64,000 bases of DNA, from the NCBI GenBank assembly GCA_033439255.1, contig CM065885.1:2232001-2296000 (forward strand). The letters run 5' to 3'. Position 1 is the first letter of the stretch. The number at the start of each line of letters is the position of its first letter. Source of the stretch: Hericium rajendrae. Lineage: Eukaryota; Basidiomycota; Agaricomycetes; Russulales; Hericiaceae. The notes beneath the pieces were generated by a model. That model saw nothing but the letters and a program-made list of their open reading frames with translations. It did no database searches and was not told the origin of the DNA. The position numbers were made by a program, and so were the translations under genes. Shown piece by piece: positions 10,969 to 64,000 of this stretch.

Positions 10969-11333
10969 CCACACTGTGGGCAAAGACCCATAAAAACCTA
11001 GAATATTTGAAGAAGTAATTTTGAATATGTGGTCTAAGACTTGTCAAGGACTGCTGTGAATATTTTGAGAAGTATTTTATAATAAAGCCACAAAACAATT
11101 CACAAGGGCTGCAGCAGATATCAGAGGAATAAAAGAGGAATACATCCTTACACATGGTTTATTCCTATTTTATTCCTCTTATATCTGCAGTAGTCCTTGT
11201 GAATTCTTTTGTGGTTTTATTAGAAAGTACTTCTCAAAATAATCATGGCAGTCCTTGACAAGTCTTAGACCACATATCCAAAATTACTTCATCAAATATT
11301 CTAGATTTTTATAGGTCTTTGCCTGCAGTGCCA
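10969..11333. mobile_element. CACTA-like MITE (foldback)
   Basis: A 359-bp element (10972-11330) whose two halves are long inverted repeats of ~170 bp (roughly 85% identical by eye). Ends read CACTGTGGGCAAAGACC and, inverted, CACTGCAGGCAAAGACC. It is flanked by the 3-bp direct repeat CCA (10969-10971, 11331-11333). The CACTR terminus and 3-bp target duplication are hallmarks of the EnSpm/CACTA superfamily. No coding capacity. Confidence 0.8.
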
Positions 11334-21465: not shown

Positions 21466-21537
21466 TACGCCGAAGGGGAGTCGAACTCCTGCCGCTTGCT
21501 TGGAAGGCAAGCATGATAACCGCTTCACCATCGGCGT
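21466..21537 (-). tRNA. tRNA-Gly (anticodon TCC)
   Basis: On the minus strand the acceptor stem ACGCCGA pairs exactly with TCGGCGT at the 3' end, followed by A73. The A box is TGGTGAAGCGG, the anticodon stem-loop is CTTGC-CTTCCAA-GCAAG (anticodon TCC, reads GGA) and the T loop is TTCGACT. No intron. 72 nt. Confidence 0.93.
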
Positions 21538-42206: not shown

Positions 42207-42918
42207 CTACCCCCTTCTCACACCAAACCGCTGCTTTGCTGCATACTTCCTCCACCGTTGAATATCGTCGCGTTGAAGGAGAAGCTCCACGGTATAGAAC
42301 TCCCGTGCCAGTTCTTCGTTTTTCGCGACATGATGAACAGCGGAGTGGCAAGGCCTTCGCATCCATCAGTCTATACGAACTGGAAGTCTGAAGCTAGCAG
42401 CATTCAATAAACACTCACCGACACAGCCAGGCAACAGAGTTCAACATCGACTCCGTGTGCCACTTCTTCTTGAGTGCCTTCGCATGTGCCGAACGTGGTA
42501 TGAGATGATGATATGTCAACGGAACCTCCCTCTCGCACAGCTCGCATTCTGTCGTCCGAGTCGAAGACCAGACAGGTGGCGGAGCACAGACGTCCTGGAC
42601 GTACTCCCCCAGAACTCTGCGGAGGAATTCAACCGCTGCATCCCAATCCGCGCAGAGACCGTAAGACGTAAGGTTGTCTGTGAAAGACACGGGTATGTTG
42701 TCTAACTGTAGCACATCGATGTCGGGTACATCGCTGCGGGATTCGTACGATGCATCCCGGATAGATGGAGGGAGGCTTTGCCAGACTTCTGCAGCGAGGT
42801 AGGATGAGAATTCGTCAAGTTCCGTTGCATCGTCGCCTTGGTGGCTCGGCGGTGACTGTGCGATCGTCCGTCGGGCTAGACAGTCTTTGAAAGTGTGATA
42901 TTGGGATGAAAACGTCAT
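42207..42918 (-). CDS. HNH-type zinc-binding protein
   Basis: Two exons: 42918-42419 and 42354-42207 (648 nt, 215 aa; 64-nt intron with a GTGAGT donor and GCGAAG acceptor). The C-terminal half reads CELCEREVPLTYHHLIPRSA, then HTESMLNSVAWLCRPCHSAVHH, a CxxC...HH...H/CxxC...HH pattern typical of fungal HNH-nuclease-like proteins. The tail NEELAREFYTVELLLQRDDI QRW is also conserved in them. The N-terminal half is a helical domain of unknown function. Nuclease activity is plausible from the HH and Asn residues but unproven. Confidence 0.8.
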
Positions 42919-43404
42919 GATGGTATACAGATGAAGAGGTATCAAGGTGAAGAACTGAGTAGGTGTCTGACTGCATGAGACGGAGATAGACGCGCAGTGA
43001 AAGACTTGAATACTTAAGAAAACGTACCGGCGAAGAGCGATCTGGAATTCAGCGGGAAATGTCAGGACAATTGGTGCATTGAAGCATTCATGCCTGCAAG
43101 ATACTTAGACTATACTCACCTTCTGCGTGTTGATGACGTTGATGTCGCACAGACACGCGTTCACTATGATGGTCGTGTACTGAATATTTCAGGAATTTCG
43201 AATGAGCGGCAGGAGCAGGCGCCTGACATGTGCTTGGCTTGCTGACTTCCGAAGTTGAGTACGCACTCAGCCTTTATTCCAAGCCAGCAGCTGCACATCA
43301 ACGCTGTGAGTGTACAAGCTCCCGAGAACAACTCGGACGGCGTACAAATCATTCATACTCTGCGTTTCATGCTTTAATATCTAAGTTATCAATTTCCTGA
43401 CTTC
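42919..43404. other. intergenic, divergent promoters
   Basis: Between the HNH gene (-) and the WD40 gene (+). A 62-codon Cys-rich minus ORF (43164-43352) is not convincing. Confidence 0.35.
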
Positions 43405-45076
43405 ATGGCACCAGCTCCGAGACGCAGAGTCTCGTCCCTCCTCCCACAGATCCCGTTCCAGTCCTCCAATTACCCCCGCTCGGCGCCCAGAGACATGGAA
43501 AGATAGGGCCGCTGCTTCAGCATTCCGAAGGAAGCCCGGATTCGCATGGAACATCGACGCCGAGATGGACGCACTTCACGCGGCATCGTCTCGGGGTCGT
43601 CTCGCTCGCACTCGACACCTCCACACAGCTCGTCGGCAGACCCGCACCCGAGGGTATCCTGTACACAGGCGGACGCGACGGTCTTGTCATCTCCCGGGAC
43701 CTGGGTATACCCATGAAACCGCGGACGCGCAAGTACGGCGCGCCGAGCAGTGACACCATGCGTATGGCGTCTGGGCGGTGGGAGATGATGACGGGCTGGG
43801 CGGACGAGGTGATCGATGAAGAAGTCGAAGACGGCGAGGAGGGTCCGCGAAGCGACGGGGATATCCTAGGCGACGTGAAGGGGAGCGGGAAGCGCAGGCG
43901 GACGAGCGCCGCAGCGGACGCGACTGCCATTCCGCTGGAGCAGCAGTGGGAGACGGACTACGCTGCCTTCGAGGAAGGAAAGGTGCGTGTTCTTGCCATG
44001 GAGCTATGTCTTTTCTGATGCAGTTTTGGTTAGGCATCCCACTTCCGACAGTCCACGCAAATGCACTCGGATTGGGTAAACGACATTCTCCTAGCCAACC
44101 ACAACCAGACCGTCGTGTCTGCCTCCTCCGATGGCTCGGTGAAGGCATGGAGTCCTCATGCCAGCACTGTTTCGGAGCCAAGTACTATCGGCATCCATAA
44201 TGACTATGTACGCTGCCTCGGATATTGGTTCGTACCCATCTTCTCCAGAGCTGCACCATATTGATGTGATAACCAGCCGCGAACAGAACTACGTCGCGTC
44301 TGGCTCGTTTGACCGCACTATCAAGCTATGGGATTTGGGCCAGACCGCATCCAAGGCGAAGCCAGAGCCTCTTATCACTCTGAACCCGCCAGAGTCATCC
44401 GGTCCTAAGTCGTCTGTCTACGCATTGGCATTGGATCCACTTGGCCACACCATTGTATCTGGTGGTCCTGAACGTGTTATCCGAATATGGGATCCACGCG
44501 CAGGTAAGAGAGTAGGGAAGCTGGTCGGACATACCGACAATATCCGCGCAATCCTTGTGTCGGAAGACTCACGATATGTTCGTGTCTTGATTTTGCTCAT
44601 CGATGATGAAGTCTCACCATTTTTTCCCTAGCTGCTTACTGCCTCAGCGGATGGTAAGTTTGCAAAGTAATGATCTTATCTCAAACTGAACACGCTCCTT
44701 AGCCTCTATCAAGTTGTGGTCACTTGCTTCTCACCGATGTCTCCATACCTTCACTCACCATACAGATTCTGTGTGGTCTCTTTTTTCATCTCATCCGTCG
44801 CTTGAGATATTTTATTCTGGTGACAGATCCGGTTTCGTTACCAAAGTCGACGTCGAAGGCTGCGCGGATATGTCGGAAGGCGAGTGTGTCGTAATATGCC
44901 AGGACACCGATGAGATGGGCAATGCCGAAGGCATCAACAAGATGGTCGCTATGGATGACAACTTGGTATGGACCGCATCTGGAAACTCGAGTCAGAGTGC
45001 CGCGCGTCCTCGCTCGCGCCGGCGACGCGGCTCTCGTCGTTCGTCTCGACTCTCCTCAGATCGACACCGCCGATAA
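43405..45076 (+). pseudogene. WDR48/Bun107-like WD40 gene, broken
   Basis: The family binds and activates USP1/USP12-type deubiquitinases. The ATG at 43405 gives [10 protein letters not shown], the family start as I know it, but after about 12 codons the rest of the protein lies in a different frame: 43440 to 43980 is open without an ATG ([20 protein letters not shown], then [20 protein letters not shown]). The WD40 blades follow through introns near 43984, 44230, 44580 and 44656: [75 protein letters not shown]. After that the frame is lost again near 44995 and the C-terminal half (second propeller region, SUMO-like domain) is absent. An array of hairpin modules occupies the position instead. 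The single-base breaks could in principle be assembly errors; the missing C-terminal half could not. Confidence 0.65.
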
Positions 45077-45121
45077 CTCTTCAACTTAGTCGTTTTCTTA
45101 CTATCTAAACCACCAAGGGGA

Positions 45122-45248
45122 GTGCGACTTGGTCGTTTTCACGCCCTCTCCTTTGCAAGTGCGACTTCGCCGTTTTCACGCTGCTCTCGTCTTCGTAAAT
45201 GCGACTTGGTCGTTTTCACCCTTTTGTGAGTTCGACTTGGCCTTTTTT
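45122..45248 (+). repeat. short tandem repeat (~39 bp, four copies)
   Basis: GTGCGACTTGGTCGTTTTCA at 45122 recurs with small changes at 45159, 45199 and 45230, spaced 37, 40 and 31 nt. A weaker half-copy (ACTTAGTCGTTTTC) lies at about 45083. It follows directly on the broken WD40 gene. Confidence 0.75.
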
Positions 45249-45774
45249 CGGTCTTGTTTCTATTTCTACTTGCACGATTTCGCCCTTCGCGCTCAGCCGC
45301 ACTCGTTCCCCGCCTTTTTCAATCTTTCCCGCTCTCCATCGCCCATTCCCCGCGTCGAAAATGCCCTCAAACGCGCCCCATTCCGACGCGAAATGCTGAA
45401 AACGAATCCCCCTGCCGACCGCAAACACGCCCTCTGACGACCGGAAATGGCGATGACCACCGACCGTACGAAGATGACGCGGAATGCGCTCCCCGTCACT
45501 CACTCGAACTTGACGATGACGCCCTTGGGCGTCGGGGCGGGGCCAACAGCAGTGGACGCGGGAAAAGCAAGTCCGTAGGCTAGCCGCGCGAAGCTGGTCA
45601 GCAGCAAGACGATACCGCGCAAGTGCGCATGCGACGACGACCAGCTCCATCGCCGCGATCGCATCCAAGCACCGGGCGCGCCTCGTACTTGACGATGACG
45701 CCCTTGGTGTCGTCCGGTGCACAAGACGTAGATCTGATGTGGCGAAGGGCGGCGACTCGGGACAGGTGAACCAA

Positions 45775-46431
45775 ATGCGAGAAGAACTGCGAGTCAGAGA
45801 AAGTGAGCTTCCACCCATCCTTTCATGTCTGAAAGACTCACCTGCGACATCCCAGAACGGAAAGCGCCAATCCAGCGGACGCGGAGTCATACGCATCTTC
45901 ACGTCGCGTTCGCTCCCTCTGCCGCAGTGTCGGGTCGAGCGCCTTGTCGCAGCGACGGCGGCTCCAGGGCCGGAAAGGCGACTGCGCGGCTGGGATTCGA
46001 CAGAGATGACTGGAGGACGTCGATGGCGATGGCGAGGAGTGGTGAAGACGACGGGAACACGGTGGACACCATGGAAGCGCGGGAACGCTAGGATCCACGA
46101 GGGTAAGTAAAACTACTACCTCAATATCAGCAACGTAGACCTTACATTGACAGGCCGCGAAGACGAGCGCGAGCGCAGTTCACGCTCGGGCGACGACAGC
46201 AATAGGAAGGCCGCCGCAAGACTAGGAAGCAGACGGGAAAGCGACGAACGAGACCGGAATGAAAGGGGGACGAGACGGCGATGGCTCCAGGAGGCTGCGG
46301 CCGACGGCGCGCCCAAGGCACGGCCCAGCGCCCGCCTCGGTGCGGCATTGATCATCACAGGAAAGGGCAGCATGGCGCTCGCCGCGGGGCATTGCAGGGT
46401 GGAAAGACCGCATCGAAGACCGAATTCCTAG
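45775..46431 (+). CDS. hypothetical Arg/Ser/Asp-rich ORF before the array
   Basis: Two exons, 45775-46102 and 46154-46431, joined by a canonical 51-nt intron (GTAAGT ... TTGACAG); 201 aa. Starts MREELRVRESELPPILS, then has Arg-rich and RS/RE-type stretches (EGREDERERSSRSGDDSNRK, RLGSRRESDERDRNERGTRR). The stop at 46429 falls a few bases before the first array intron. In another frame the same bases lead in frame into that intron (GKTASKTEFLVPA), so the true product may run into the array. No homologue recognised; Arg-rich content could be GC bias. Confidence 0.3.
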
Positions 46432-46437
46432 TGCCCG

Positions 46438-48742
46438 CGGTGAGTCCGATTTCTCTTCGGTTAATCGCAAGCTAAGCTGACTTACCGGCAGCTCCAAGAC
46501 CAAGCATAACGCGCGCAACGAAGAACTTCATCGGGCTATGCCCGATGTACGCAGCGCGGGCCGTGAGCATCGACGGGAGCCGTCGACGCTCACATCGAAA
46601 GCCTTGCTCTAATGACGCGCTCGCCGCTCGGCGCGGGCCCTGAATCCTCGAAATTTGGATGCGGAGAAGGGCTTCTCTGGAGGTCACAGTGAGTCCGATT
46701 TGTCCTCGGCTAACCTGAATGTAAACAGACTTACAGGGTTGCCAGAACCACAAAAATCGGGCGTACAGATATCACGGGACATTGCGAACCCGTCCATCCC
46801 ACCCAGATGCAGGCTGAAAGGCTGAAAAAAGCGACGCAACGTCAATGCAGGATCAACGTGTATCGGCCCAATCGCCACGTACCGACAATCGTCATCCATG
46901 AGGCAAAGGCGCGCTGGGCTTCGCCCAGCCGCGCGGTGACGGCGTCAGCGTCGGGTTGACGCTCATGCCGATAGCTCGCCCTTCCAGTGCTCGTTGCCGC
47001 TCGCCGCGGGGGTCTGAGCCTCAGGATTTTGGAGGGACGAGAACCTGTTTTCGAGCGCCTGGGTGAGTGCACATTCGACGCGGCTAACACGCATCGAAAT
47101 AACTCACGAGCACGCGCAGATTCGCGCGCTGGGCTTCGCCCAGCACGCGGCGCCGTGCAATGTCGACTGCGACTCCGCAGCCTTGACCTCCGAGCACGCT
47201 CGCCGCTCGGCGCGGGCCTCGGACTCCTGGAATCCCGGCGCTTAAATGTAGTATTCTGCAAGCCTAGGTGAGCACCAGGAAGCCTCGACTGAATGCCGCC
47301 GAAACGCACTTACCAGGATGCGAAACACGCCCGCAAAGGCGAACGGCGGGCTCCGCCCGCCTCCGTCGCACGCGACGTGAGCGTCGGACCGACGCTCACT
47401 CCGTTTGGCTAGTCCTAGGGACGTGGACGCTGCTCGCCGCGAGGCCTGGGGCCCAGAAATTTGAAGCGAAAAATGCGCTTTCTGGGAACCTGGTGAGTTA
47501 CAGTCTGGTTCGGCTAATATCACAGCAGAAAACTCACCAAACGGTCTCGCACAGGTGCTAAAGCGCGTCCCCAAGACGTGAATCGGCGGGCTGCGCCCGC
47601 TTCTCGCAACCGCGCGACTTCAACGTCGACGGGTCTCCGTCGACGCTGACTTCGCTGCTTTAGCCTATGAGCGTGCTTGCCGCTCGGCGCGGGCCTCGGA
47701 CTCTTGGGTTCCCAGCGTCAAAACGCGAGGTTCTGCAAGCCCAGGTGAGTTCCGGGAAACCTCGGCTGAATGCAGTCGAAACCCACTTACCAAGATGCGA
47801 AACACGCCCGCGAAGGCGAACGGCGGGCTCCGCCCGCCTGCGTCGCGGGCAACGTGAGCGTCGGTCCGACGCTCATGTCGTGTGCTTGGTCCTATGGGCG
47901 TGGACGCTGCTCGCCGCGAGGCCTGGGGCCCAAAATTTTGAAGTGAGAAACCCGCTTTCTGGGAGCCTGGTGAGTTACGTTCTGGCTCGGCTAGTACAAC
48001 GCTAGAAAACTCACCAAATGCGGTCGCACAGGTGCTAGAACGCATCGCCGAGAAGTGAATCGGCGGGCCGCGCGCGCGACTTCAGCGTCGACAGGTCTCC
48101 GTCGGCCCAGACTTCGCAACTTTAGCGTATGAGCGTGGATGCCGCTCGGCGCGGGCCTCGAACTCCTGGAATCTGGGCGCCAAACGCGATGTTCTGCAAG
48201 CGCAGGTGATTGCCAGGGAGTCTCGACTGAAGGCAGCCGAAACGCATGTACAAAGACGCGAACCACGCCCGCGAAAGCGAATGGCGGGCTCCGCCCGCCT
48301 TCGTCGCCCGCGATGTGAGCGTCGATCCAATGCTCATGCCGTATGCCTAATCCTATGGACGTGGACGCTGCTCGCCGCGAGGCCTGAGGCCCAGAATTTT
48401 GAAGCAAAAAAAAAACAATCTCTGGAAGCCTGGTGAGTTACAGTCTGGCTCGGTTAATCTCGCGCTAGAATACTCACCGGACCGTGCCCTATAGGTGCCG
48501 GAATGCGCCAGCGACATCGCCAAGAAGTGGATCGGCGGGCTGCGCCCGCCTCGGGCACGCACGCGACGTCAGTGTCGACGGGCCTCCGTCGATACTGACT
48601 TCGAAGCGTTACGCTATGTGCACGGATACCGCTGGCCGCGGGGCCCTGGATCCTGGAAAATCCACAAGCAAGACTGACTTTTCTGACACCCTGGTAAGTC
48701 CCATTTCGCCTCTGCTGATTGCCCCGGGAATACTCACCATAG
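46438..48742 (+). repeat. array of hairpin-bearing exon-like modules
   Basis: About nine modules at ~235-bp spacing. Each has hairpin 1 (cores at 46529, 46913, 47128, 47345, 47585, 47822, 48062 decayed, 48283, 48534). Most also have hairpin 2 about 20-40 nt on (46563-46593, 46944ff, 47377-47399, 47624-47645, 47854-47876, 48568-48599; weak at 48317 and 48083). A block such as CTGCTCGCCGCGAGGCCTGG and a donor GTGAGT follow. From 47300 modules alternate between two types, giving a ~470-bp higher-order repeat (three copies). Spacers are ~50-60 nt with donor, CTAAT/CTGAAT branch-like motif and CACCAAG/TTACCAG-type end. Some modules are open in one frame (TAGSARLRR..., then LLAARPGAQNFE), others have stops. 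Confidence 0.75.
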
Positions 48743-48951
48743 ATCCATGCCATTTCCAATGCTTCTCGCGACGCAGGAACTCCCGCAAGTGAAGACGATA
48801 GGACGGGCTACGTGCGCGCACGAAATGTCACCGTCGATGAGCCGCACGCACGTTCCGTGCTCGACACAAAGAACCTCCAGTCCGTCAACGTGACGCATGC
48901 CATAGACGACGTGCGAGGCCGGCGCCATTGGAAATCTACGGGTCGTTACAG
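48743..48951 (+). other. open exon-like segment after the array
   Basis: 209 nt open in the frame that continues from the last module (GRGALDPGKSTSKTDFSDTL then IHAISNASRDAGTPASEDD, VRARNVTVDEPHARSVL, NVTHAIDDVRGRRHWKSTGR). Flanked by an acceptor CACCATAG and donor GTGAGC. Unlike the array it is not hairpin-rich. Probably an exon of the same plus-strand transcription unit. A further segment to about 49130 could be the last exon, but its splice sites are ambiguous. Confidence 0.35.
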
Positions 48952-49129
48952 GTGAGCACAGCACATTATGAACTCAAAAACGAAAACGTCGCACCATCAC
49001 CACGTCACGAAGTGCGGTCAGACGACAGAGCGAACATCATCAGACTGGAAGACGGCACCGTGCACTGCTGTGGACAGTCTCGCCTTCAAGCTCGACTCGC
49101 AAGTGGCCCCTTCATCACGCCTCGACTAG

Positions 49130-51278
49130 GTAGGAGGCATCGCTATTATCATCGCTATCTCGCCCGTTGTGGAAAGTCGCAGTGGATTGCGGGGATGAAT
49201 TTAACGGACAGCGGAAACTAGGGGATGGGGGCGAAAAGGCGGAGGTAATTCCCAGAGGCGAGTGCTTATATCGGCACGCACGGAGGAACACCTGTTCCTC
49301 CGCGCATTGTGCCGGGGCCTTGTCTCGGGATCCATCTTCCGCGCTCTCGTCCTGTTTACGTTTGCATTTCTGGTGCCGAATTCCGATCACTTCAGGTACG
49401 TAGATTCTATTTCCGGTCCATTCGAATGCCGCTTTTTGAAGGCTCTACAGACTGAGGCTCACCGGTACATAGATGTTTTGTCGTAGTTATTGAAATCCAA
49501 TGCAATCCTCCTTTCTTGACTTATATAGTGTCCTTCCTTTCTTCAACATTCTTCTGGTAAAATCTCGCAGGTGGAGACAGCTTAAGCACATCGAGGATGG
49601 CCAGGCTTGGTCTCTAAGTCGGGCTCGACAACTGTTCCCAAAACTTCGGGAGATGCTTGAATAATTTGTCAACTTAGATCTTGAGTGCTTGAAAAAATGC
49701 AGAGCCCGGAATACAAGCGGCTGATTTATCCTTCACCGACAGCAGGCAAGACAAGCTCGTTGGAATTAGTGTTGCATCGTGAGAGCGAGAACTGGACGCC
49801 GCGGTACTGAAATCCATATCGGGCGGTCTAACTCAGCTTCGCCGCCTCGCACAGAACACCGCAAACAATGAGGCTCTCGATAGCACTATCAAACTGAGGA
49901 TGAGAAGATCATCTTTATCCTATAGCAAGAGGTCAGTATCTATTTTTTTGCGGACAAGAAACCGGAATATGCAGTCGAGCACACCAAGAAAGTCATCGGA
50001 AGCCTAGCCAATCCGATGCAGCATCAAGCGTAGCCATGATGGCCGATCCACGGCTAGGTGTCCATTTCCTCCGTCGGATGGCCTGACTGATTCCCAGCTA
50101 CAGAAATAGATTGTTGCCAAGCCCTTTGATATTCGGGCCTGTCTAGAAGTTACTACTTCTCAATCCCTACTGATAATATTCCACCTCATACTTTGAAATC
50201 TGCTCAAGGTCTCAAGATGCTTAGCATTCAGATTCTTAATTATTCAAAGCCTGAGTCCCAATTCTCTTAGATGATCAGCCTTCAAGACATGGATACCATG
50301 GAGGGAATCCCCGGTATCAAATTAATGAGTGACATCCTGTCGTCAAGTGTGTGAGAGGCCAAGCCTCGCGTCAGAGGTCCTTACGTTGCATTCTGCTCTA
50401 GCCCGAGAAGTCAGCTTATTTGCCACGTATCCCGGAAGATCTCGATCAGTCCGAGCATTTCAGGGTTGTCGCGGCCATTCACACCGGGCAACTGGTCCGT
50501 GCCATGCCCATCCATTCTGTACTTAATGGTACCCACTGCTGTCCCCCATCTCCATCCTCGTCTGCGAGGCTCCCCCTTCCTCTCTCAGTTTATTTCCTTG
50601 CTCTCATGTACGTTCAAGACAGCAATGGTATGTGATATTTATTTCTGATCTTAGTTTCAGCTTACCTTTGATGCACTTGATAGGGTAATATAAATATTGT
50701 AGTATCCGGCATAGCGTAGCTTTCTGTAGATCTTTACGGACAGATGAGTACTTATATCGGGCAGCGGTGTCAGTGGCCATTGTGCAGGGCTGCTCGTGGT
50801 TGATTCCCAGTGAAAACCCACTCTAGACAGATATAACGAATATCTAGAAAATGTTGTAGTATCGAGTGAAATCGAGATTGTTCGAATTCACGGTTGGAAA
50901 CTGCATTATCGATGTTGATGTCGATTGGGCGCTTGGGCTCGTCCGTGCCCGGTCGAGCTCGACAAAGGGCGCCCAGCCTGCTATTCGAATATGTATGATT
51001 AGATAAGATTCTCACTTCATTTTGTTCTAAGTCGAGTCTGTCAAGATATCGGTGCGTGTTATTGTCGCTAGCACCGTCGCGCTCACGTTCTAAACGGACT
51101 ACTTCCTCGCCGTGTGGCAGACTGGCAATGCTTGGCTGCCTTCAAATTTTATAAACTTTGCGCTGCTTGTAGTCGAGACGTTCTAGCGGCCAGTTTACGG
51201 TTCGTCTAGTATACTACATTTCTTTCGCACTCCTTTCAAATATAACACGTATCCTGCTACAGCAGAATCTGTTCTTCG
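49130..51278. other. 2.1 kb without a supported gene
   Basis: AT-richer than the array; only short ORFs. Presumably the 5' flank of the transposon region and old mobile DNA. The left end of the Tnp2 element should lie here, but I could not identify its terminal repeat. Confidence 0.35.
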
Positions 51279-52320
51279 ATGGCCTCACAGCAGGACCACC
51301 TATGCAATTGCGAGAAATACTGCCGAGGGGTGCCCACTTGTCACGGATCGCTCCATTTCTCTCCGCCTTCTTCTCTGCCATCAAGGCATCGCGTCGGTCA
51401 TGTGCTCCAGCAGCCCCATCACATGTTCACTTCCTCACATGACCTGGGACTATCCTTCACCCATGCCCTTGTTCCCCTTTGGGACATCCTATTGTTCTCC
51501 CTCCCATTGTTCTCCTTTTGGCCACCATTGTTCTCACTCTATTGTTCGACCCGTTATGGTGTCCATTGTTCTTTTCCCATTGTCGTCCCAGTACTTATAG
51601 GCTCCCTGTCGCTCGCCTATTTCCCTAGATTGTCCATTTCGTCTGTACCGTACTGTACCTCCAATACAGGTCACTGCGCTGCTAGTCGCTCTCTGCTCTC
51701 TCACTCCCATCATCGCTGGTGACTTGGGTGGTTCTCTGCTGTCTACGACCGAGTCTTGACACCTGGACAATCTCTCATACACCCGCCTCACCTCCCTACT
51801 ATCGCCCATCATACCTTTCTTCTTTGAACCCTTCACCGCCGACATCTTCACCGAATCCCGACATCCATTCCATCAACCTCATCTCCCCTTTCCCATCGCC
51901 AACACCATCGAGGGCAGTGCACTCATCCCCCTCCTCCGCTATTGTGCTGTGAAGCGTTGGGAAGCCGAAGGAGTTTGGTTTCGATTGAGGTCGTGGAAAC
52001 CACGTGCAGGTGCTATCTCCATTGCCTTATACGTTCGAATTCGAGTTTCCTTTGACGTCGACTTGCAAGAATTCACGTTCGGTGCCTCGGATATCGCTTA
52101 CCACTGTCGCCAACCCAACCGAGGATCCCCTGCAAGTATCCTACCATCGACCTCATTCCCCTTTTGCACACTAGGTCTTTTCACCCCCGAACCCTCGCCT
52201 GAGCCTGTGTGGGCCAGAGAACGCCTCGGCCACCGATTCCTCAGAAACCCGTACTCGGACCCCCTGTACCCTCGTGCTCTTGGTCGTCGCCCAGTCGCGG
52301 CTGACTTCTTCTAGACCTCA

Positions 52321-53990
52321 CCATTGATCCCACCGACCCCCGTTTCCAGACCACAGAACCATACCCACTCGGCGTCTTTGCCTCGCTCGACGAATACTTC
52401 ATCTACACCCTTTCTGGCATCGTTCGAATAGACTTCGTCACTCCGGACGAGGACGAGGACGATCCCGCACAGTGGTACTTCGCTGATCGTGACGACCAGG
52501 CAGACCTCGAGCTTAACGACTTCGACGTCGCAGCTACAGAACACCGCCGCCAACACCCCGCTACCCCGCCACTTCCCACCGTCGCCCTTCCTAGTGCAGA
52601 TTCTCCCCCTGCTCGCACCACCCCACTTGTTGTTCCCCCAGGTATTACCTTCAACCCGGTAACCAACAACTACTACGCATACCGCTCCGACACCAATCGG
52701 CTTGTAGTCAGTTGGAGACCCAGCCTCGTAGAAGAAAGTGACCTGTGGTTTTGGCAGGCCAGTACCCTCTTCTTAACCACTGCAGAACTCGCACTCTCTC
52801 AAGCAGTTATAGAGAATCTCGCTCAGCAACAAGCTACCCGCCTCGATACCCTTCGGGCCCCACTACCACCACCTGTTTCGACGCCTACCCCAGTACCAGT
52901 CCCCTCACCTGCTCCACCCGTTGCCGCTGCTGCATCGACATCCACCGTCAACGTCAAACCAACCATTGCCACAGCTCCCCCTGTTCCGCCGCCCGACGAC
53001 ATGTCCAACCCCGAGATCGGCGTCAAACCTGCTCCCTTTGAGGGAGATCGTTCCAAGTCCAAGGAATTCCAGCTGCGTATTCGCTTATTCCTTCGTGCCA
53101 ACTCTGTCAGGTATAAAGAGGATACCGCCCAGATCTCCCTCTTCCTCGACCTCTGCCAGGGCCCTATTGCCGGCCAGTGGGCCACCCAGCGTGTCGAGGA
53201 GATCCTTGAGGATGACGATCTTGTGGCTGCAGCCACATCTCCAGCCCATGTCCCTCGCTACGCCAACCTCGCTGCCCTTCGAACTCGCTTCAATTTGGAC
53301 TTCTCCCCCCTTGACGACTCCAAGGACACCTCCCATGCCATCCAGACCCTCCAGATGGGCACGCGCCCGGTAGTCGACTACATCACCGAGTTCGAGTCCT
53401 TCGCTCCTCGCACCGGCTACAACGATGTGGCCCTGATCGATTGGTTCCTGCATGGCCTCAACAGCGCCTTGCGAGATGATTGCCAGCGCAGCTACCCCAC
53501 GCCCACCACCCTGGTTGAGTGGAAGGCAAGGGCCCGGGACAGGAATGCTGCCTACCTCATGCGCACCCGGTTCCAGAGTCCCCGCCCTACAACTGGGCGC
53601 GCCCCGGTGAGCACTCGCTCCCCTCAGTCCACATCCACTGGCCGATCCCGCACAGTTGCTGCTACAGGTGCCCCACTGCCCAAACTCTCGGAGCCTGACC
53701 GTGAACGTCTCAGGCGTGAGGGTGGTTGCTTCCGCTGCCGCCAGAAGGGCCATGGCTTCCGCGACTGCCCCCTCAATGCCGACTCCAACCCCCGTGCCCC
53801 AATCCCTCGTGTCCGAGCGCTAGAAACCGGCTCTGCCCCGGGAGTAGCTCCAGAAGATGCAGCCGCCGCCCTCGCTGTCCCCGCCATCAACAGGTCCATC
53901 GCCGACTTATCGTCGCAGTTGAAGGACTTGAGTGAGGAAGAAAGGGAAGAGGCAAAAGCTGCATTAAAGGATATGGTTGAGGGTTTTTAA
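52321..53990 (+). CDS. Gag of the Ty3/Gypsy element
   Basis: Structural protein. Open from about 52321, but the first ATG in frame is at 53001 ([20 protein letters not shown], 329 aa). Upstream the frame continues without ATG through a Pro-rich region; a separate 121-codon ORF (51949-52314) ends in the overlapping -1 position at its 3' end, so a shift or an intron may join them. Visible: capsid-type helix region and one CCHC zinc knuckle, [15 protein letters not shown], near residue 248 of the ATG-started form. Confidence 0.85.
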
Positions 53991-54013
53991 AGCGCCCCCC
54001 GGTCACGTCGTCC

Positions 54014-57000
54014 GTGGGTGGCAAGAAACATTTCTTTGATCCGTCGAATCGCTTCTCTGTACTATCCGACCCCTGTGAGCAATCGTATCCATCGTCTTTG
54101 CGCATGTCCGCTATCACGCCCAACCGTCAGACACCGTCCATTACGCTCCAGGCCAAGATTATCACTACCCCGATCAAGAAACAAATCGACGCTGAGGCAC
54201 TTCTCGATAGTGGTGCAGAAGGCATCATTATGCACCCCGAGTTTGCCAAGAAACACCAGTTCCCCCTCAAGAAACTCCCTAAACCCTTTCCCGTTCGCAA
54301 TGTGGACAACTCCGAAAACATCATGGGCTGGGTCCGCTATTCAGTCAACCAGAACATCCGCATTTACGCCAAGGACTCGACGTCCTTTCATGAGGAGACA
54401 GCTGAGTTCTATCTCGTTGATATTGGTGACTACGACATTATCCTTGGGACCGATTGGTTACAGGAACACAACCCTGAAATTGATTGGGTCTCTCGTCGTG
54501 TCGACATGACTCGCTGCCCTCCCTCTTGCACTCTGAATAAACCCCCAGTCAAGAACCTGTCCACTCGCACTGAACGCCGCCACTCAGCCCCTCGTCCACC
54601 AGTCCTCAGCACTGCTGCAGTACTGCTCCCTCCACCTTGCCTCCCTCCATTGCTCCCACTGCCCCCACCATTTGTTGCTGCTCCCCTTCCCAAATACGTG
54701 ATCCCCGCTCGCCGAGTCCAAGGTGTCCGCCTTCGCCGCATCCACCTGTCCAAAGTCCCTGCACGTCTATTCACTGAGGACGATGACCCCCGACCTAATG
54801 TCGATGACGACTGGGTTGAGGAGGGCCTTCGTCTAGCTGGTGTTCTCCCTGACTGGGACACACCACCCCCACCAGACGACGACCCCGACTATCAACACAC
54901 CATCCGTATCCGTCGCTCTTTCACCAATGCTCAGAAACTGGCGGAGCGCGTGGCCACTCGTGTTGCAGAGAAGTCCTTTGCTGAGATGGTTCCCCCTCAG
55001 TATCAGGATTTCCAACCCGTCTTCGACGAGGAATCCTCCCATCGCCTCCCCGAACGTCGCCCTTGGGATCACGCCATTGACCTGAAAGATGGTTTTGAAC
55101 CCCGTTCATGCAAGGTCTATCCCATGGCTCCTACCGAGCAGGAAGACCTTGATTCATTCCTTGATGACCAGGTCAAGAAAGGCTACATCCGTCCTTCCAA
55201 ATCCCCTATGGCGAGTCCCTTCTTCTTTATCAAGAAAAAGGATGGAAAACTACGCCCCGTCCAGGACTATCGCACCCTCAACAAAGGCACCATCAAGAAT
55301 GAATATCCCCTGCCCCTCATCTCTGAACTCGTTGACAAGCTCAAGGGTGCCAAAGTCTTCTCCAAGATGGACGTTCGTTGGGGTTACAACAACGTTCGCA
55401 TCAAGGAGGGCGACGAATGGAAAGCCGCCTTCAAAACCAACCGCGGTCTCTTTGAACCCCTGGTGATGTTTTTGGTCTTACCAACTCCCCTGCCACGTTC
55501 CAAGGAATGATGAATGAACTTTTCAAGGATCTCATCGACACGGGCAAAGTCGTCATCTACATGGACGATATCCTCATTTTCACCGAAACCCTCGAAGAAC
55601 ATCGCGACCTTGTGCGCAAGGTCCTCCAACGCCTCCAGGACAATGACCTCTTCCTCAAACCAGAGAAGTGCTCGTTCGAGCAGCCCTCAGTTGAGTTCCT
55701 CGGTCTCATCGTCTCCCATAACACGCTCGCCATGGACCCCGTCAAGGTTGCAGGCATTGCTGAATGGCCTGCCCCTCGTAACGTCAAGGACGTCCAGTCC
55801 TTTGTTGGCTTTGGCAACTTCTATCGACGCTTTATCCAGGACTTCTCCAAAGTCGCTCGTCCCATGTTTGACCTTACCAAGAAAGACCATCCTTGGGCCT
55901 GGTCTGCTGAATGTCAACATGCCTTTGAGGCTCTTAAAGCTGCATTCACCTCGTCCCCAGTCCTTATCATGCCTGACCCGTCCAAACCCTACCTGGTTGA
56001 GGTCGATGCCTCAGACTATGCCACAGGAGGTATCCTATCCCAGCGCGGGGAGGACGAGCAATGGCACCCTGTTGCTTACATCTCCAAGGCCTTCACCGCC
56101 CCCGAACGCAACTACGACATCTATGACAAGGAACTCCTGGCCATCATCCGTGCCCTCGAAGCCTGGCGCCACTACCTGGAAGGCTCTCCCCATACTGTGG
56201 AGATCTGGACCGACCATAAGAACCTGGAATACTTCAAGTCTGCCCAAAAGCTGAGTCGTCGTCAGGCTCGCTGGGCTCTCTTCCTCACTCGTTTCGACTT
56301 CACCCTGATCCACAAACCCGGTATTCATCACCGGCCAGATGCCATGTCGAGACGACCTGACCATAGAGAGGGGGTGGACGACGACAACTCTGATCGTGTC
56401 CTCCTCGACCCCAAGTACTTCCAGATCCGTGCTACACGTCCAGCTGCTGTCAAGTCCATTGGCAATGCTGATCTTCGCCAACGCATTCGCAATGCCAAGA
56501 CCAAGGACATTGAGGTTGTTCAAGCCCTTGATGTGATCCTGAACAATGGTCCTCGTTCCCTCGTCAAGAACCTCCAAGAATGGAACTACGAGGATGGCCT
56601 CATCCTCTTTCGTGGCAAAGTCTACATCCCCACTGACAAGGACCTTCGTCGGGACATCGTCAAGCTGCATCATGACACCCCCATGGCTGGTCACCCAGGA
56701 CGCTACAAGACCTATGAGCTCCTCAGTCGCAACTACTGGTGGCCCGGTATGTCTGTCTTCGTCCGTGATTATGTTGATGGCTGTGCTACCTGCCAGGCCA
56801 CCAAGGTTCAAAATCACCGCCCTCATGTTGAAACAATTCCCAATGCCATCCCTACCCGTCCCTTCCAAGACATTACCTCGGACTTCATCGTCAAACTCCC
56901 AGAATGCCAAGGCTATGACTCCATCAATGTGGTCGTCGACCGTTTTACAAAGCATGTCTCCTTCACTCCTTGTAAAGAGACTATTACCAGTGATGGCACA

Positions 57001-58119
57001 GTCGACATCCTTTTTGACAGGATTTATCGGAACTACGGCCTCTGGGAACGCCTCATCTCTGATCGTGGCCCACAGTATGCAGGCAAAGTCATGCGTGGCG
57101 TCTTCGACAAACTTGGTATCAAGTCCTCCCTCAGCACCGCCTATCATCCACAGACCGACGGCGAGTCAGAACGCGTCAATCAAGAACTCGAGCAGTTCCT
57201 TCGTACCTTCTGCAACTACCGTCAGGATGATTGGGTCCAATGGCTCCCTTATGCTGAGTTCTCGCACAACCACCGTATCCACAGCGCCACTAACCGAGCT
57301 CCATTTGAAATGCTCCTCGGCTATATTCCCACTGCCATCCCCACTGTCAACCCCACATCGTCTACACCCACCGTTGAGGATCGTTTCCGTCACCTCGAAC
57401 AACTTCGCACTGAGGTCCAGGCCAGCCTTCAAACAGCTGCTGATCTCATGAAGCGCAACAACCAGGACCATATGCATGACACCATCCACTTCCAGGTTGG
57501 TGACAAGGTCTGGCTCGATGGCAAGAACATCAAAACCACGCGACCCAAAGCTAAGCTTGCTGATCGACGCCTGGGACCTTTCGAAATCACTGACGTCCTG
57601 GGCCCAGTCTCTTATCGACTGAAGCTACCGTCCACCTGGCGTATCCACCCGGTGTTCCACACATCCCTGTTGTCCCCTTACAAGGAAACCGACGCTCATG
57701 GTCCCAACTTCCCTGCACCACCACCTGACCTGGTGGAGGGCGAGGAAGAGTACGAAGTTGAGTCTGTCCTCGATGCTCGTCTCACCCAGAACAAACGCGG
57801 CATTGAATATCTCGTCAAATGGGCAGGCTACCCTGATTCGGAAAATCAGTGGCTTTCACGTACCTCCCTTTCCAATGCCCATGGTGCAATCACCGACTTC
57901 TACACCCGCCATCCGCATGCACTCAAGGCTCCCAATCTTCGTGGACTCATCTACCTCGACCCCGTCCATGCTCATCACGCACTCCAGGCGAAAGTGCGTC
58001 TTAGAGAGGGGGTGATGTCACGGATCGCTCCATTTCTCTCCGCCTTCTTCTCTGCCATCAAGGCATCGCGTCGGTCATGTGCTCCAGCAGCCCCATCACA
58101 TGTTCACTTCCTCACATGA
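54014..58119 (+). pseudogene. Pol of the Ty3/Gypsy element, frame broken once
   Basis: Two ORFs, 54014-55510 and 55507-58119, together cover protease (LLDSGAEG at about 54200), reverse transcriptase, RNase H, integrase and chromodomain. The RT is split at about 55469-55473, where a run of five Ts sits in the conserved stretch before the YMDD motif (55558-55569): the frame shifts there, so RT is not continuous. RNase H lies about 56000-56350, the HHCC zinc domain with [20 protein letters not shown] at about 56690, and the DDE core after it. The chromodomain EEEYEVESVLDARLTQNKRG with WAGYPDSENQW is at 57745-57860. Pol runs about 100 nt into the 3' LTR. The break may be a real mutation or a homopolymer assembly error. 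Confidence 0.8.
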
Positions 58120-61100
58120 CCTGGGACTATCCTTCACCCATGCCCTTGTTCCCCTTTGGGACATCCTATTGTTCTCCCTCCCATTGTTCTCCTTTTGGCC
58201 ACCATTGTTCTCACTCTATTGTTCGACCCGTTATGGTGTCCATTGTTCTTTTCCCATTGTCGTCCCAGTACTTATAGGCTCCCTGTCGCTCGCCTATTTC
58301 CCTAGATTGTCCATTTCGTCTGTACCGTACTGTACCTCCAATACAGGTCACTGCGCTGCTAGTCGCTCTCTGCTCTCTCACTCCCATCATCGCTGGTGAC
58401 TTGGGTGGTTCTCTGCTGTCTACGACCGAGTCTTGACACCACTCCCGTCACTCGCCGTACTTTCAACCTACATGCACCGCATCATAACTCAGTCACGCCT
58501 TTGGCCGAGTTTCTCGCTGCTCGAGGAGAGTTGGTGCCTTCCGCGAGCTCTTCCCGATTGGGCGCTGTGCCCAGCTCGCGAAAACATTCAAGGCTACCAG
58601 GCGATGCGGGCGAGGAGGGTGCTGATAAAGCGTTGAGTGGCTCGAAGCAGTGGAGGCTGGATGTTGAAGAGGACTCCGGTCCAGACATGGTGCATGCTTC
58701 TCCCATGTCCTTCTGTCCATGTCAATGCTGATGCTTCCGTAGGGCCCTCAATCGCCAACATTAGATGTGGATCTCGCTGCGCGTAGCCGCCCTGGTACTC
58801 CCCATTCCCCCGGTCCAACGTCCTCTGTTATCGCGGGCCCTGGCACTCGCTCCAACTCCCCGTTTCCCACACCTGATACTGAGACAGGTCCGCAGGCTGC
58901 TGATGATCCTGGGCCTGACGTCGAAGAGCCTGGAGACGGCCCCGTTCAGCGGACAAACTTGGATCCTGGCAGCATTGCTGACCTCGATGCACCGCGGGCT
59001 CCCTTAATAGTTCCACCCGCACCTGCACCCATGGCACCTGATGTGCGCGACGACACTTCTTTGCTAGAGCTGGATGCTCGCGGCCAGTCCATGGAGGATA
59101 TCCCTTCGAGAATTGAAGATGTTCGGACCGCTCAGGAGTTCATATGTCTGATGCAGACGGCATCACTCAAAGACGACAATCTACCGCCGGATACCCTCAA
59201 ACGTCTGCAAAACCCACTGCGCGACCCCCCCAACCTTGACGATGATCCCGTTCTCCGCTTCTCTATCTGCATTTTCCTTGCGTTGAGCAATGCTTCCCAG
59301 GACTCATACAATCGGATCCGTGCTGCATTTGCAGTCTTTGCTCAATGCTTCACCCATGCTGGACCAGCTGGACTTCAGCTTCTTTCCTATGACCAGGTCA
59401 AGCGTCGCATAGCCGAACTTAGTGGCGTAGTGCCTATTGTCCATCATATGTGTATCAATAGTTGCGTGGCGTATACAGGTCCCTTTCAAGACAAGGACAC
59501 CTGTCCCATTTGTGGCGAGTTGCATTACGACCAGAACAAGCTGCGTGCAAATGGGGCAAAGGTCGCACGTCAGCAATTTCATACTATTCCTCTCGGCCCA
59601 CAGCTCCAGGCTCGATGGCGTACGCCAGAAATGGCTCATAACATGCAGTATCGACATCATCGCATGACAGATATCTTGGACGAGATTCACCGCACGCAGC
59701 GAATAGCTGTCTACAACGATCTGTGTCATGGTACAGATTTGCTGCGAGCAATGCAGAAGGGTCGAATCATGTCTGATAACACCGTGCTGTACTTCTCAAT
59801 TGATGGTGCTCAGCTGTATCAGAGCAAGCAGTCTGACTGCTGGATTTACATCTGGATTCTTCTTGACCTTTCTCCTGATCTCCGCTACAAAAAACAACAC
59901 ATCCTTCCAGGTGGATTTATTCCTGGACCTCACAAACCCAAGAATCTTGATTCCTTCATCTTTCCAGGGCTCCGTCATCTGGCAGCACTTCAGAGGGAGG
60001 GTTTGCAGGTCTGGGATGCAGCAAAAGGCAGACAGATCATAGATCGTCCATTTCTTGCATATGCTAGTGCCGATACTCCTGCTATGTCAATGCTAGCTGG
60101 TCGAGTGGGACATCTTGGAGGCATGGGTTGCAGATACTATTGTCCACTTCAAGGTCGTCGTAAACCCCAAGGATCACAATACTATCCTGTTCATCTCAAG
60201 CCTGACAACTATGCTGTGGAAGGATGTTCTCATCCTGATGTAACATTGCACTCATTCAATGAGACTCCTGAGGAGATTTCCAAGCGGTACAGATTTATTT
60301 AATTCTGATATGATTAGATGCTTATAATTTCTCTGTTAGCTACAAGGACAATTTGAAAAATGTGGTGGCTTCATTTGATCTGCGCGAGTTTCGCCGCCGT
60401 CGTCTTGAGTCGGGTATCTGCAAGCCTACCATTTTTAGTGGCCTCTCTGATGATCACAGACTGGAAATTCCTATTCTTTTTTGTGGAGACTCAATGCATT
60501 TACCCACTCTCAACATTCCTGACTTGAAGATAGCTTTGTGGCGAGGAACCCTGGAATGTGATCGTAATGATGACAAATCAACTTGGGATTGGGTTGTTTT
60601 GACAGGAGATACTTGGATCACTCATGGGAAAGCAGTAGAAGATGCCACACCTTATCTTCCTGGATCCTTTGAGCGACCTCCACGAAATCCTGCTGACAAG
60701 ATACACAGTGGTTATAAGGCTTGGGAGTTTCAAACCTATATCTATGGCTACTGCCCTGCCATGCTCTATAAAATCCTTCCCGACAAGTATTGGTGCAACT
60801 TCTGCAAGCTTGTTCTTGGTGTTCGACTTCTTCTCCAGCATTCCATTATCCCTGAAGAGCTTGCCTTGGCCAAAAAAGTACTTCTTGAGTACTGTGATGA
60901 ATCTGAGCTTCTTTATTATCAGCGCTTGACTTCTCGCATTCACTTCTGTTGTCAAAGCATTCATCAGATGCGTCATGCTGTGCCTGAGAGTATCCATGTG
61001 GGATTACTTGCTTTGACTAGCCAATGGCCCATGGAGCGCGTTATTGGAGACTTGGGACGAGAAATTCGACAATCTTCCAATCCATTTGCCAATCTTTCTC

Positions 61101-61832
61101 AACGAGGTATCATTCGAGCTCAGGTCAATGCACTTCATGCTATGATACCCAATTTGGAGCCACAAAAGTCACCTTTTCCTCAAGGTTCAGAGCCATTGCC
61201 TAACAACTTTGTTCTTCTTTGAGCTCGAGACAAGGCCCCACGCAAGGTGGATGGATATGAGGCTGAGGCTCATTTGGCCTATTTGGAGCAATTGCAGGCA
61301 GATGAACATTTAGATGTGATTATTCCTCAACAGATTTATCACATGAAGTGGGCTCGTCTTCGTCTTCCTAATGGACAAGTGGCCCGTTCTCTGTGGAAGG
61401 AACAGAAACTTGAGCAGCGCAAACTTAGAATGGCTAGAAATGTCAAAGTAAGATCTCATTTTTTTTTATCATTGATTTCTTTCTCAGCTAATTATAATTG
61501 TTTAGACTTATCTAGATGGACATTGGCGTTTTGGTGAAGTGCAATATTATTATCAATGGAAAATTGGTCAAGAGATGAAAACTTTAGCCATGGTTTCTCT
61601 TTATACTTTACCAGATGCTAATTTACTTGAAGCTTCTTTTGGAACAGTCTGGTCTTGCCAGTATCAAGGTGCTGAGGCTATGAGAGTTATTGATGTACAG
61701 ACAATAGCATCAGTTGTAGGCATGGTGCCTCATACCAGTGAACCAACTTGGCAGAACAGATATTTTGTAGTAGAACGAATGGGCTTAGATATTGTATATA
61801 AAGTCAGAGGGGAAGATGTTCCAGAGGAATAA

Positions 61833-62053
61833 ACATATTTTTTGCAATATATACTAGCCTATTTTAAGGTCATCAAACATCTGATCTATGTTCTTATCAT
61901 TTGACCAGAACAACACTTATAACAGCTCTCTAATTTATCTATTTAGTTGCTAAACTCACAGTGTGACAGTATATAAAAGCATAGCATAAATATGACAAGA
62001 AAGGACAAGAAAGCTATGAGGGTAACATATCTAATATAAGATCATAAGCAAAT
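61833..62053. other. convergent 3' region of transposase and oxygenase
   Basis: 221 bp between the two stops. AT-rich, no feature beyond likely polyadenylation signals. Confidence 0.4.
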
Positions 62054-63789
62054 TTAACTAACACCAAAGACCTGACGACGATCAGCAACAAGATCATCAT
62101 ACTTGGAAAAAAAGTTCAAACACTTCCGTCGACGTGCATCCTTTGGTCCATCAATTTGCTCCTTCTGAGCTGCAGTAAGGTCCTTTACTGGACGATAGCC
62201 ACAGCGCACCCACTGGATCAATGGGCCAGGACAATATTGAGTAAAAGAATATCTAGTCTCCCCTGGTTGGATTGCTGTGTTTCCGTGCCGTACACAAGCA
62301 GATGGAACTAGGATGGAGGATCCAGGGGGGAACTCTATGGCGAAGCCAAGGTCCCAAAAAATAAAATGGCCACCCTGTTTGGGATCGTAGTCACCGAGAG
62401 CAGTAATCTGACAGAATCCATAAGGAACATTGCGAGATATCCGCGTGTATAACAGTGCAGGCTTGCGGGCCCAGATTGAAGTTGGCAGATGGAAAAATAC
62501 TGCCTTCATATAACAGATGAAGGCCGTAACGTTGGTAGAGTGGCTCCAAGTTATCTGCATAATGTTTGTAGACCTTGGGGGCGCAATAGGCCAGGGATGC
62601 TAACAAGTATGCTGAATTAGATGTGAGAAATGTGATATATTGGATGAAACACACCACTTCCGAAGCTGGCTATCCGCGACAAAGATGGACTCTTGACAAG
62701 ACGATCAATGATCTCTTGATTCTTGGGGGTGTTGGCACGATATCCTGGTTCCTGTATGCTATCAGCACCGAGCTTCTGCGTCGCATGCAAGGGGCTCACC
62801 TTTTTATTCTTCCACCCCGAGTGCGTGACACCTGCAACTAGAGCAGGGAATTGACCGCGCTTGGATTGTCCTCCTGACTTGAAGTCCCCATCATGACGGG
62901 CCTGTTCTAGCTCTCGTTTCGCGTCTTCAATGACAGCGGGCCAGTCGGGATCATCTGGCTGGCCTAAGAGGTATGAGATGCCGAACTTCTCGAGGTCCCG
63001 CACCATGCGCCTTGACCTAAGACATGTATGATGTGAGTTTCGGTATGAAAGCAAGTAAATCGTACACTCACCTGCCATCCCACGGCTTAATTTCCAAGCC
63101 TAGAGCCACCAGCTGTTGGACAGTGAGTACCTCTTCGCCACGTTCCTGCGGCGTGGCCACATAAGTGTTTTGCGTCACGGGGAACTGGCTTGCTGAGGCC
63201 GCGACATCGATAACTTCCGGCGGTCCATGCTTTCTGCACATGTCGGCCTTTGGCTTGTAGCCAAATGGCCCCTTTTCGCCCGCCATCGAGCAGCTGTCCC
63301 GGCCTTGCTGGCATCCGTGGTAGGTTTCCTGGTTCTCATCTCAGGCTTGTCTTGCGGCGCGACCATATCCTTGCCGTCTGGTGAATTGTCATCAACATGC
63401 CCTGCGGCAGCGACTGGGTTGTCAGATAAATGGGTGTCGGCAGGGGGTGCACGTCCAGGGGAATCAGGGTAAGCGGCCAGCTCATCAGAAAGACATGCGG
63501 GTGATGGCGAAGGCCTGTTAGCAGAGGATGCGGGCAACGCAGGACCCCCGCGGGGTAGGGACAGAGGCCAGGGGGACGGCGCCGAGCTAAACTGCATGTA
63601 GGCGTAAAGCAAAGTAGGCTGATCGTCGTCGAGGTGGGGCGCAGGCTCATCCGGGCTGGAGGAGCTGTGGCTGTTAGGAGTGGCTTCCTGGATGTCGACG
63701 GTGGAGACCTCGTCAGCACATGCTTCTTCCACGTCCAGCGCACGATTAAGGAGGGGCCAAATCGCAACTTGGGTTTGAATTGAATCCAT
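62054..63789 (-). pseudogene. TET/JBP-like 2OG-Fe(II) oxygenase gene, frame broken
   Basis: Fungal relative of TET/JBP 5-methylcytosine dioxygenases, a family known to be linked to DNA transposons in basidiomycetes (Iyer and colleagues). The N-terminal region is disordered (starts MDSIQTQVAIWPLLNRALDV). Then conserved blocks: KPKADMCRKHGPPEVIDV; RRMVRDLEKFGISYLLGQPD; VAGVTHSGWKNKK; RIASFGSG; SLAYCAPKVYKHYADNLEPL. The catalytic double-stranded beta-helix shows HADIS (H-x-D), SACVRHGNTAI (distal His) and GETRYSFTQY (Arg for 2-oxoglutarate). Introns: three clear ones near 63010-63070, 62750-62795 and 62595-62650. Two frame breaks: near 63285-63310 (no GT donor available) and one extra base directly after HADIS, near 62427. 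So probably a pseudogene. Confidence 0.65.
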
Positions 63790-64000
63790 TCTGTGCGCGG
63801 ACGCGTGGTGCCGGAAAGACCGTGAGTCAGAGGCGAGGATTCAGAGCGTGAAGCCTACCCGTGAAGCTGCTTCAAGTGGATGTGAGTGACTTTCAGTAAG
63901 GACCTGTGGGCAAGTGGTTAGGAAAGGCGTAGTCCCCCGATAACGTGAATCCGTGGGCGGGGCGTTGAATGGATCCACGCAGCCATCATCGGCTCGCTGC
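63790..64000. other. 5' flank of the oxygenase gene
   Basis: No coding sequence recognised. Contains the presumed promoter; window ends here. Confidence 0.35.

Follow-up and report, generated by a model that had tools for sequence, protein, structure and literature searches.

Foldback and Galileo-type elements carry long inverted repeats made of subrepeats; their ends are expected to be fixed and their target duplication short. In yeast, the promoter E-pro is bidirectional. In the yeast rDNA spacer, a fork-arresting site lies near this regulatory promoter (PMC11760980). ODIRA, one of the replication template-switch copy-number variants, produces inverted triplications (PMC10766183), and the internally symmetrical stwintrons of Hypoxylaceae are introns (PMC8469720).

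We analysed a window of 64,000 nucleotides (C8:2232001-2296000) of the Hericium rajendrae genome, which comprises 46.8 Mb in 19 contigs. An adrenodoxin-reductase-like frame in the window shares 94% identity with a Hericium alpestre protein and 66-71% with the next matches, as befits a basidiomycete near Hericium. Its array of hairpin modules proved to be one arm of a larger, dispersed, non-coding element, E, which lies beyond what a sequence-only reading of this DNA had seen. Like Foldback and Galileo elements, E is dispersed, apparently non-coding and equipped with two inverted arms of tandem GC-rich subrepeats, long inverted arrays being found at C4a, C8 and C11; unlike them, it showed neither a terminal motif nor a short target duplication, lies amid direct duplications of host genes that span kilobases and carries a conserved core, P1, at five loci. 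The comparison with the yeast rDNA spacer concerns how the system might work and draws on layout alone: E forms part of tandem gene+spacer units, in which a possible promoter core adjoins a possible fork-stalling structure, whereas it occurs with many different host genes, at low copy number and with no rRNA, and its barrier is putative. As in ODIRA, short inverted repeats accompany local duplication, although the copies in ODIRA are inverted and the gene copies beside E (G) are direct. The modules share with the Hypoxylaceae stwintrons a donor-like start, inverted symmetry and their nature as a fungal repeat; in contrast to stwintrons, their symmetric ends vary independently, their acceptor is unconserved and they form long arrays. 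A literature search that mostly covered sources other than subscription journals returned no description of an element like E.

Covarying palindromes in the module array

The array in the window consists of nine modules and a partial tenth, with an insertion in module 2 and with later modules alternating between two related types (Table 1). A typical module carries three short palindromes, and most modules are approximately 180-290 bp long. All eight positions that the sequence-only reading gave for hairpin 1 match the window, although at 47585, where perfect arms had been claimed, the 3′ arm is GCCCGCT, leaving six Watson-Crick pairs and one G.T. The two variants proposed for hairpin 2, GTGAGC..GCTCAC and GTCAGT..ACTGAC, were both found, and hairpin 1 has lost its 3′ arm in the module that starts at 47970. 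Between 46438 and 48742 there are 12 perfect hairpins (arms of at least 7, loop of 3-4), whereas 200 dinucleotide shuffles gave 0.45 on average and never more than 4, confirming that the hairpins are real and non-random.

Table 1 Coordinates of features in the window
Feature	Position	Strand	Details
G: 5′ part of WDR48/UAF1-like WD40 gene and start of divergent neighbour frame	42734..44996	+	Truncated copy 1 of 3; WD40 matches
Start of non-coding element E	44997..45260	+	Tandem GTGCGACTTGGTCGTTTTCAC-type repeats; TRF 45121-45219, period 40; relatives in C4a and second C8 unit
Conserved pre-array region	45480..46160	+	Inverted at E's other side in C8
Module array	46440..48842	+	Module starts 46440, 46689, 47063, 47268, 47493, 47745, 47970, 48206, 48433, 48694 (tenth partial)
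Hairpin 1 copies	46529, 46913, 47128, 47345, 47585, 47822, 48283, 48534 (span 46529..48550)	.	Triloop TNC on + / GNA on -; exception 46529 (TAT)
Hairpin 2, clearest copy	47377..47399	.	10 bp, 3-nt loop; variants in other modules, e.g. 48568-48599
Hairpin 3 core GCYGCTCGSCGCGRGSC	46623, 47202, 47429, 47679, 47906, 48141, 48367 (span 46623..48383)	.	One pair switches G-C to C-G
P1, conserved quasi-palindromic core	49202..49388	.	TATA-like motif; stem CGGAGGAACA/TGTTCCTCCG
P2, second conserved core stretch	49917..50469	.	Found only at C8 and C4a
Later insertion, not part of E	50806..61123	.	Transposon-like DNA interrupted by LTR retrotransposon at 51339-58440

A module profile gave 224 matches in eight stretches (the window and seven further stretches of the same genome), of which 130 were near full length with a score above 60; removal of those at least 92% identical left 79 non-redundant modules. 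The claim of covariation held against a phylogenetic null of 60 alignments simulated with GTR+G on the maximum-likelihood tree: stem pairs accounted for four of the top five column pairs, and two were never matched in the 60 simulations. The leading pairs were columns 100-114 of hairpin 1 (E 0.00; Watson-Crick in 74/76) and columns 194-201 of hairpin 3 (E 0.00; 74/78), followed by columns 134-155 of hairpin 2 (E 0.13; 62/71) and columns 101-113 of hairpin 1 (E 0.33; 70/76); columns 41-45, which do not pair, were yet among the top five (E 0.30), and since the simulation used a single tree without gene conversion, all these E-values are to be taken with that reserve.

Further comparisons used an alignment, A3, of 69 of the 79 modules, from which two crossing a locus boundary (77 left) and eight more, mostly short and dropped by eye, had been excluded. 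Of the cells in this alignment 88.8% paired, a share that was 78.7% in shuffles and never above 44.1% when partners were slid; the covariation score was 0.296 against 0.141 and at most 0.100, respectively, and double-change cells numbered 135 against 53 in shuffles. There was no excess over shuffles in the pairs with any double change (12/20, reached by 196/500) or in further pair types (34, reached by 128/500) in the same 69 rows. For hairpin 1, only copies with GGGC-NNN-GCCC were counted (n=60; unique flanks n=49). Anchored on the inner stem only, its sixth pair was Watson-Crick in 49/49 unique cases, with three pair types, where independence predicts 21.4. Its outer three pairs fell into seven fully complementary types that together account for 48/60 copies, the commonest being GGC/GCC in six and GCT/AGC in five of the eight stretches; because types are common to different loci, the hairpin variants are either old or spread by conversion. 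The triloop read TNC on the + strand, equivalent to GNA on the - strand, in 54/60 copies, with the middle base free.

Part of the covariation may have been spread by gene conversion among modules, which may recombine, the very case that the sequence-only reading had named as capable of refuting it. Carried to its end, this argument dispenses with selection: template switching in quasi-palindromes and gene conversion would copy arm onto arm and spread whole hairpins, as the sharing of GGC/GCC and GCT/AGC by several loci and the many double changes without an inferred intermediate (37 events) would lead one to expect. We nevertheless judge it improbable, as the loop keeps its first T and its third C/T around a free middle base, which arm-copying leaves unexplained, and hairpin 2 retains many one-sided mismatches. 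The palindromes are under pairing constraint or subject to pairing-preserving mutation.

Module starts include a stretch of approximately 45 bp (for example, window 47493-47542) whose ends, GTRAGT and RCTYAC, are each splice-donor-like on their own strand. Their independent variation is left unexplained by every reading considered here. As an extra hairpin these ends were rejected and not counted as a stem, since the third pair behaves as if its two sides were independent (GC 31, GT 22, AC 8, AT 7; n=68).

Recurring inverted plan and dispersal of E

E is organized as a pre-region, a module array (+), the P1 core, inverted modules (-) and two repeats, R and T, within roughly 10.5-11.5 kb (10.7 kb at C9, 10.9 kb at C4b and 11.6 kb at C8, where both edges are known). 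The order of array, P1 and inverted modules is common to C4a, C4b, C8 and C9, with pre-region matches preceding the first array. The inverted side is a true array at C4a and C8; in each C4b unit it comes down to a single weak module match, and at C9 to two partial ones. The two arms at C4a are 88-89% identical over approximately 975 bp. P1 is about 190 bp long, matches its own reverse complement and contains a ten-pair stem in the window copy, and its TTATA motif is invariant in 10/10 aligned copies. It was found at C1, C4a, C4b, C8 and C9 and was absent from the C11 and C2 stretches examined, with exact P1 cores further at C9:745088 and C11:1775669. C11 has both arrays with no P1 found in that stretch, and C1 has P1 and one array, the inverted array not being found there. 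R and T follow the inverted modules at C4a and C9, T does so at C4b, and both occur at C1. T, a tandem repeat of approximately 290 bp distinct from the modules, occupies the far end of several elements (L009:2240-3160, L035:6274-7289 and relatives); at C4a, C9 and C4b, 430-575 bp separate it from the gene copy.

A genome search with a two-module query, of the kind that the sequence-only reading had called for, found relatives at 75 places on six contigs. The exact hairpin-3-type pattern matched 41 times on 12/19 contigs, counted as pattern matches rather than by inspection of each site, and its reversed control matched 0 times. E copies of different loci are mostly 65-83% identical in their matching parts. 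The recurring inverted plan and the dispersal of E are thus directly observed. A virus origin was rejected, as viral contigs had no match to the exact P1-core pattern, and so was a prokaryote origin, the longer hairpin-3 pattern having one Burkholderia match in genome contigs that we took as chance.

Dispersal on this scale, with long inverted arms built of subrepeats, also fits a non-autonomous transposon of the foldback or CACTA kind, in which the modules would be subterminal transposase-binding repeats and the kilobase duplications would be secondary. We consider this unlikely. By eye, no common terminal motif was seen at element/gene boundaries, and a short constant target-site duplication, looked for at E junctions, was not found; instead, C9, C4b and C8, the loci with both edges known, have host duplications of approximately 1.6-3.2 kb. 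Nor was a coding part recognised in the E copies read, for which few frames were scanned: six-frame matches between E loci fall in frames of both strands within the 60 of 271 matches listed, and three open frames of E had no Pfam match.

Other mobile DNA lies nearby. The large open frames of the later insertion at 50806-61123 presumably belong to a Plavaka/CACTA transposon. Minus its retrotransposon, the insertion recurs as an inverted copy, approximately 99.3% identical, at C8:2336001-2339213, and from C8:2339214 onwards the remainder of the window's E copy follows; that copy of E is therefore split by 56 kb of DNA with inverted transposon-like copies at its two ends. Beside the C2 array, too, there is DNA related to 58439-64000. 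The LTR retrotransposon has two 425-bp end repeats that are 100% identical, indicating recent insertion, and gag-pol-like open frames by eye. A second LTR element, with 820-bp end repeats that are 99.8% identical, lies inside the second C11 tandem unit (L025:1840-6943). Far from the array, window 10972-11330 is a 359-bp imperfect self-palindrome (87%).

Protein, RNA or DNA as the substrate

The sequence-only reading had held that structure, in RNA or DNA, is selected rather than protein. Protein selection is indeed unlikely. Stops occur in all three + frames of 58/79 modules and in all three - frames of 61/79, and module lengths are spread evenly modulo 3 (30/23/26), and coding exons were rejected; no protein homologue at E ≤0.01 was found for one module frame among 34 candidates. 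Repeated exons of a spliced gene would account for the GTRAGT at the module start, present in donor-like form (GTGAGT, GTGAGC or GTAAGT) in 67/79 modules, and for a CTAAT branch-like motif, found within the first 60 bases of 28/79, with CTRAY at offset 20-21 in 30. An AG immediately after CTYACN occurs in 18/79, however, so that the acceptor is unconserved, which speaks against spliced introns, and together with the stops, the lengths and the lack of a homologue for that frame this makes the exon reading extremely improbable.

Covariation above a phylogenetic null fits a structured RNA and is equally expected of a DNA palindrome. Raw mismatches on the + strand were A.C in 76 cases and G.T in 50, A.C corresponding to G.U in the minus sense, and the minus sense folded more stably in 58/79 modules. 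A structured non-coding RNA would explain this leaning of raw counts and folding energy to the module-minus strand: P1 would serve as a bidirectional promoter that drives transcription outward through both arrays, yielding a chain of hairpins selected as RNA. Because P1 lies between arrays at C4a, C4b, C8 and C9, transcripts running outward from it would be of the module-minus sense in either array, and the invariance of TTATA is in keeping with a promoter, although P1 was read as a putative promoter by eye. Once corrected for the tree, mismatch events numbered 46 for A.C and 41 for G.T (34 and 24 in hairpin 2 alone, p 0.24), and the case for a minus-strand RNA from wobble, suggestive in the raw counts, was gone. 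Wobble tolerance on one strand is expected of an RNA; none is clear after tree correction, so the counts do not establish an RNA, and a choice for RNA within the earlier claim is left unsupported by them. In Rfam 15, the sole match at gathering threshold in the window was a tRNA at 21466-21537, with none in the array, and the two matches up to E 5 in 46400-49450 (22.2 and 15.2 bits) lay below their gathering score of 45. We therefore regard selection as RNA as somewhat unlikely.

Wobble without strand bias after tree correction is what constraint at the DNA level predicts. GNA loops reportedly form extraordinarily stable DNA minihairpins (Hirao 1994; Yoshizawa 1997; both cited in PMC6479982). 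A C-G closing pair belongs to this class. With a loop of this kind and no strand bias in wobble, we lean towards DNA structure over RNA. The case carries a warning: covariation alone is no proof of RNA, since here the RNA test passes and the wobble test picks no strand.

Host gene copies around E and a possible mechanism

At 6/7 loci read, E has on either side a direct copy of a host gene, or of part of one, in the arrangement G-(E-G)n with n from 1 to 6. The gene is a squalene epoxidase at C4b (G:E = 3:2), part of a heavy-metal ATPase at C4a (5:4, in a stretch that stops short of the outer left edge), an AA9 gene at C1 (7:6, a count made ambiguous by a T-repeat remnant outside the first G), a WDR48-like gene at C8 (3:2), a gene with a weak, below-cutoff GAT match at C11 (3:2, with the third gene copy and the far part of the second element placed by coordinates only) and one with a weak, below-cutoff DUF1275 match at C9 (2:1). 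At the seventh locus, C2, 20 kb of sequence showed no flanking duplication. Gene copies within a locus are approximately 83-98% identical. Units are spaced 12.3-13.0 kb apart at C1, C4a, C4b, C9 and the first C11 interval, and 13.7 kb (later insertion subtracted) and 14.9 kb apart at C8, where the orientation of E relative to the gene is opposite to that at C4a, C4b and C1. Packaging as the reason for a constant unit length was dropped, because the units fit an element of similar size plus a duplicated flank. Three 66-bp matches 13.52 kb apart (C8:2078935, 2092455 and 2105977) hint at a further tandem gene+element array.

The window array follows a truncated WDR48-like copy, the first of three, with the full-length copy approximately 85 kb away; copies two and three lie at C8:2344860-2347143 and, split, at C8:2359769-2360303 and 2362377-2364136. 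The leftmost copy begins inside, and keeps, a left-neighbour frame at 42415-42945 (no Pfam match), and its homology to the full-length copy ends exactly at 44996. The rightmost copy, which reaches the C-terminal domain PF11816 at C8:2366096-2366727, is called full-length from its domains rather than exon by exon, its first domain stretch being read through two TGA. Copy 2 extends approximately 0.9 kb further into the gene, to C8:2348033 (c8b position 12033), and this extension is 94.7% identical to the full-length copy over the 431 bp comparable. As copy 2 is longer than copy 1, copy 1 has a deletion. We had considered 44996 as the element boundary in every WDR48-like copy, and copy 2 running on into the gene contradicts this. 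Direct host duplications are nonetheless present at most loci read.

Filler copied from nearby at a junction is a trace of template switching. At the C4a boundary there are 70 bp of filler, 87% identical to sequence upstream within that gene, and at the C8 boundary 168 bp, 92% identical to the left flank; the direction of copying, from these places into the junction, is one that we infer. C4b has a weak 62-bp match only, to DNA just past the duplicated piece, and the stretches tested at C9, C11 and C1 yielded no similar filler.

As to mechanism, like expression and mobility something that we infer, we tentatively propose that E is a dispersed element of foldback-like kind, with palindromes that are retained as DNA structure and favour local duplication through replication, a reading that we consider possible rather than probable. 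The palindromes would be kept because the DNA itself folds into a hairpin or cruciform, which either is bound or makes replication stall. At such sites, template switching together with unequal exchange would then have placed or left E amid direct duplications, kilobases in size, of the adjoining gene DNA, and G+E units would have been amplified locally, with one outer gene copy staying whole. The excess of one G over E can equally arise from classical insertion and unequal crossing-over, without any role for hairpins.

A bolder version, which we think very doubtful, would make E a portable gene-amplification cassette, with P1 as a bidirectional promoter between two arrays of replication-barrier hairpins. 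It would insert at unrelated genes, duplicate a gene-sized flank while leaving a whole copy and drive rDNA-spacer-like tandem amplification of gene+E units. If true, the squalene epoxidase, AA9 monooxygenase and heavy-metal ATPase loci would have been multiplied by it, the ATPase copies being truncated.

Our data suggest that structured DNA is linked to local gene duplication. If the foldback-like reading is right, short covarying DNA palindromes would be tied, within a single genome, to unrelated genes being duplicated repeatedly, locally and in direct orientation, and loci of different copy number would be natural replicates in which the start of tandem gene duplication could be tested in a mushroom.
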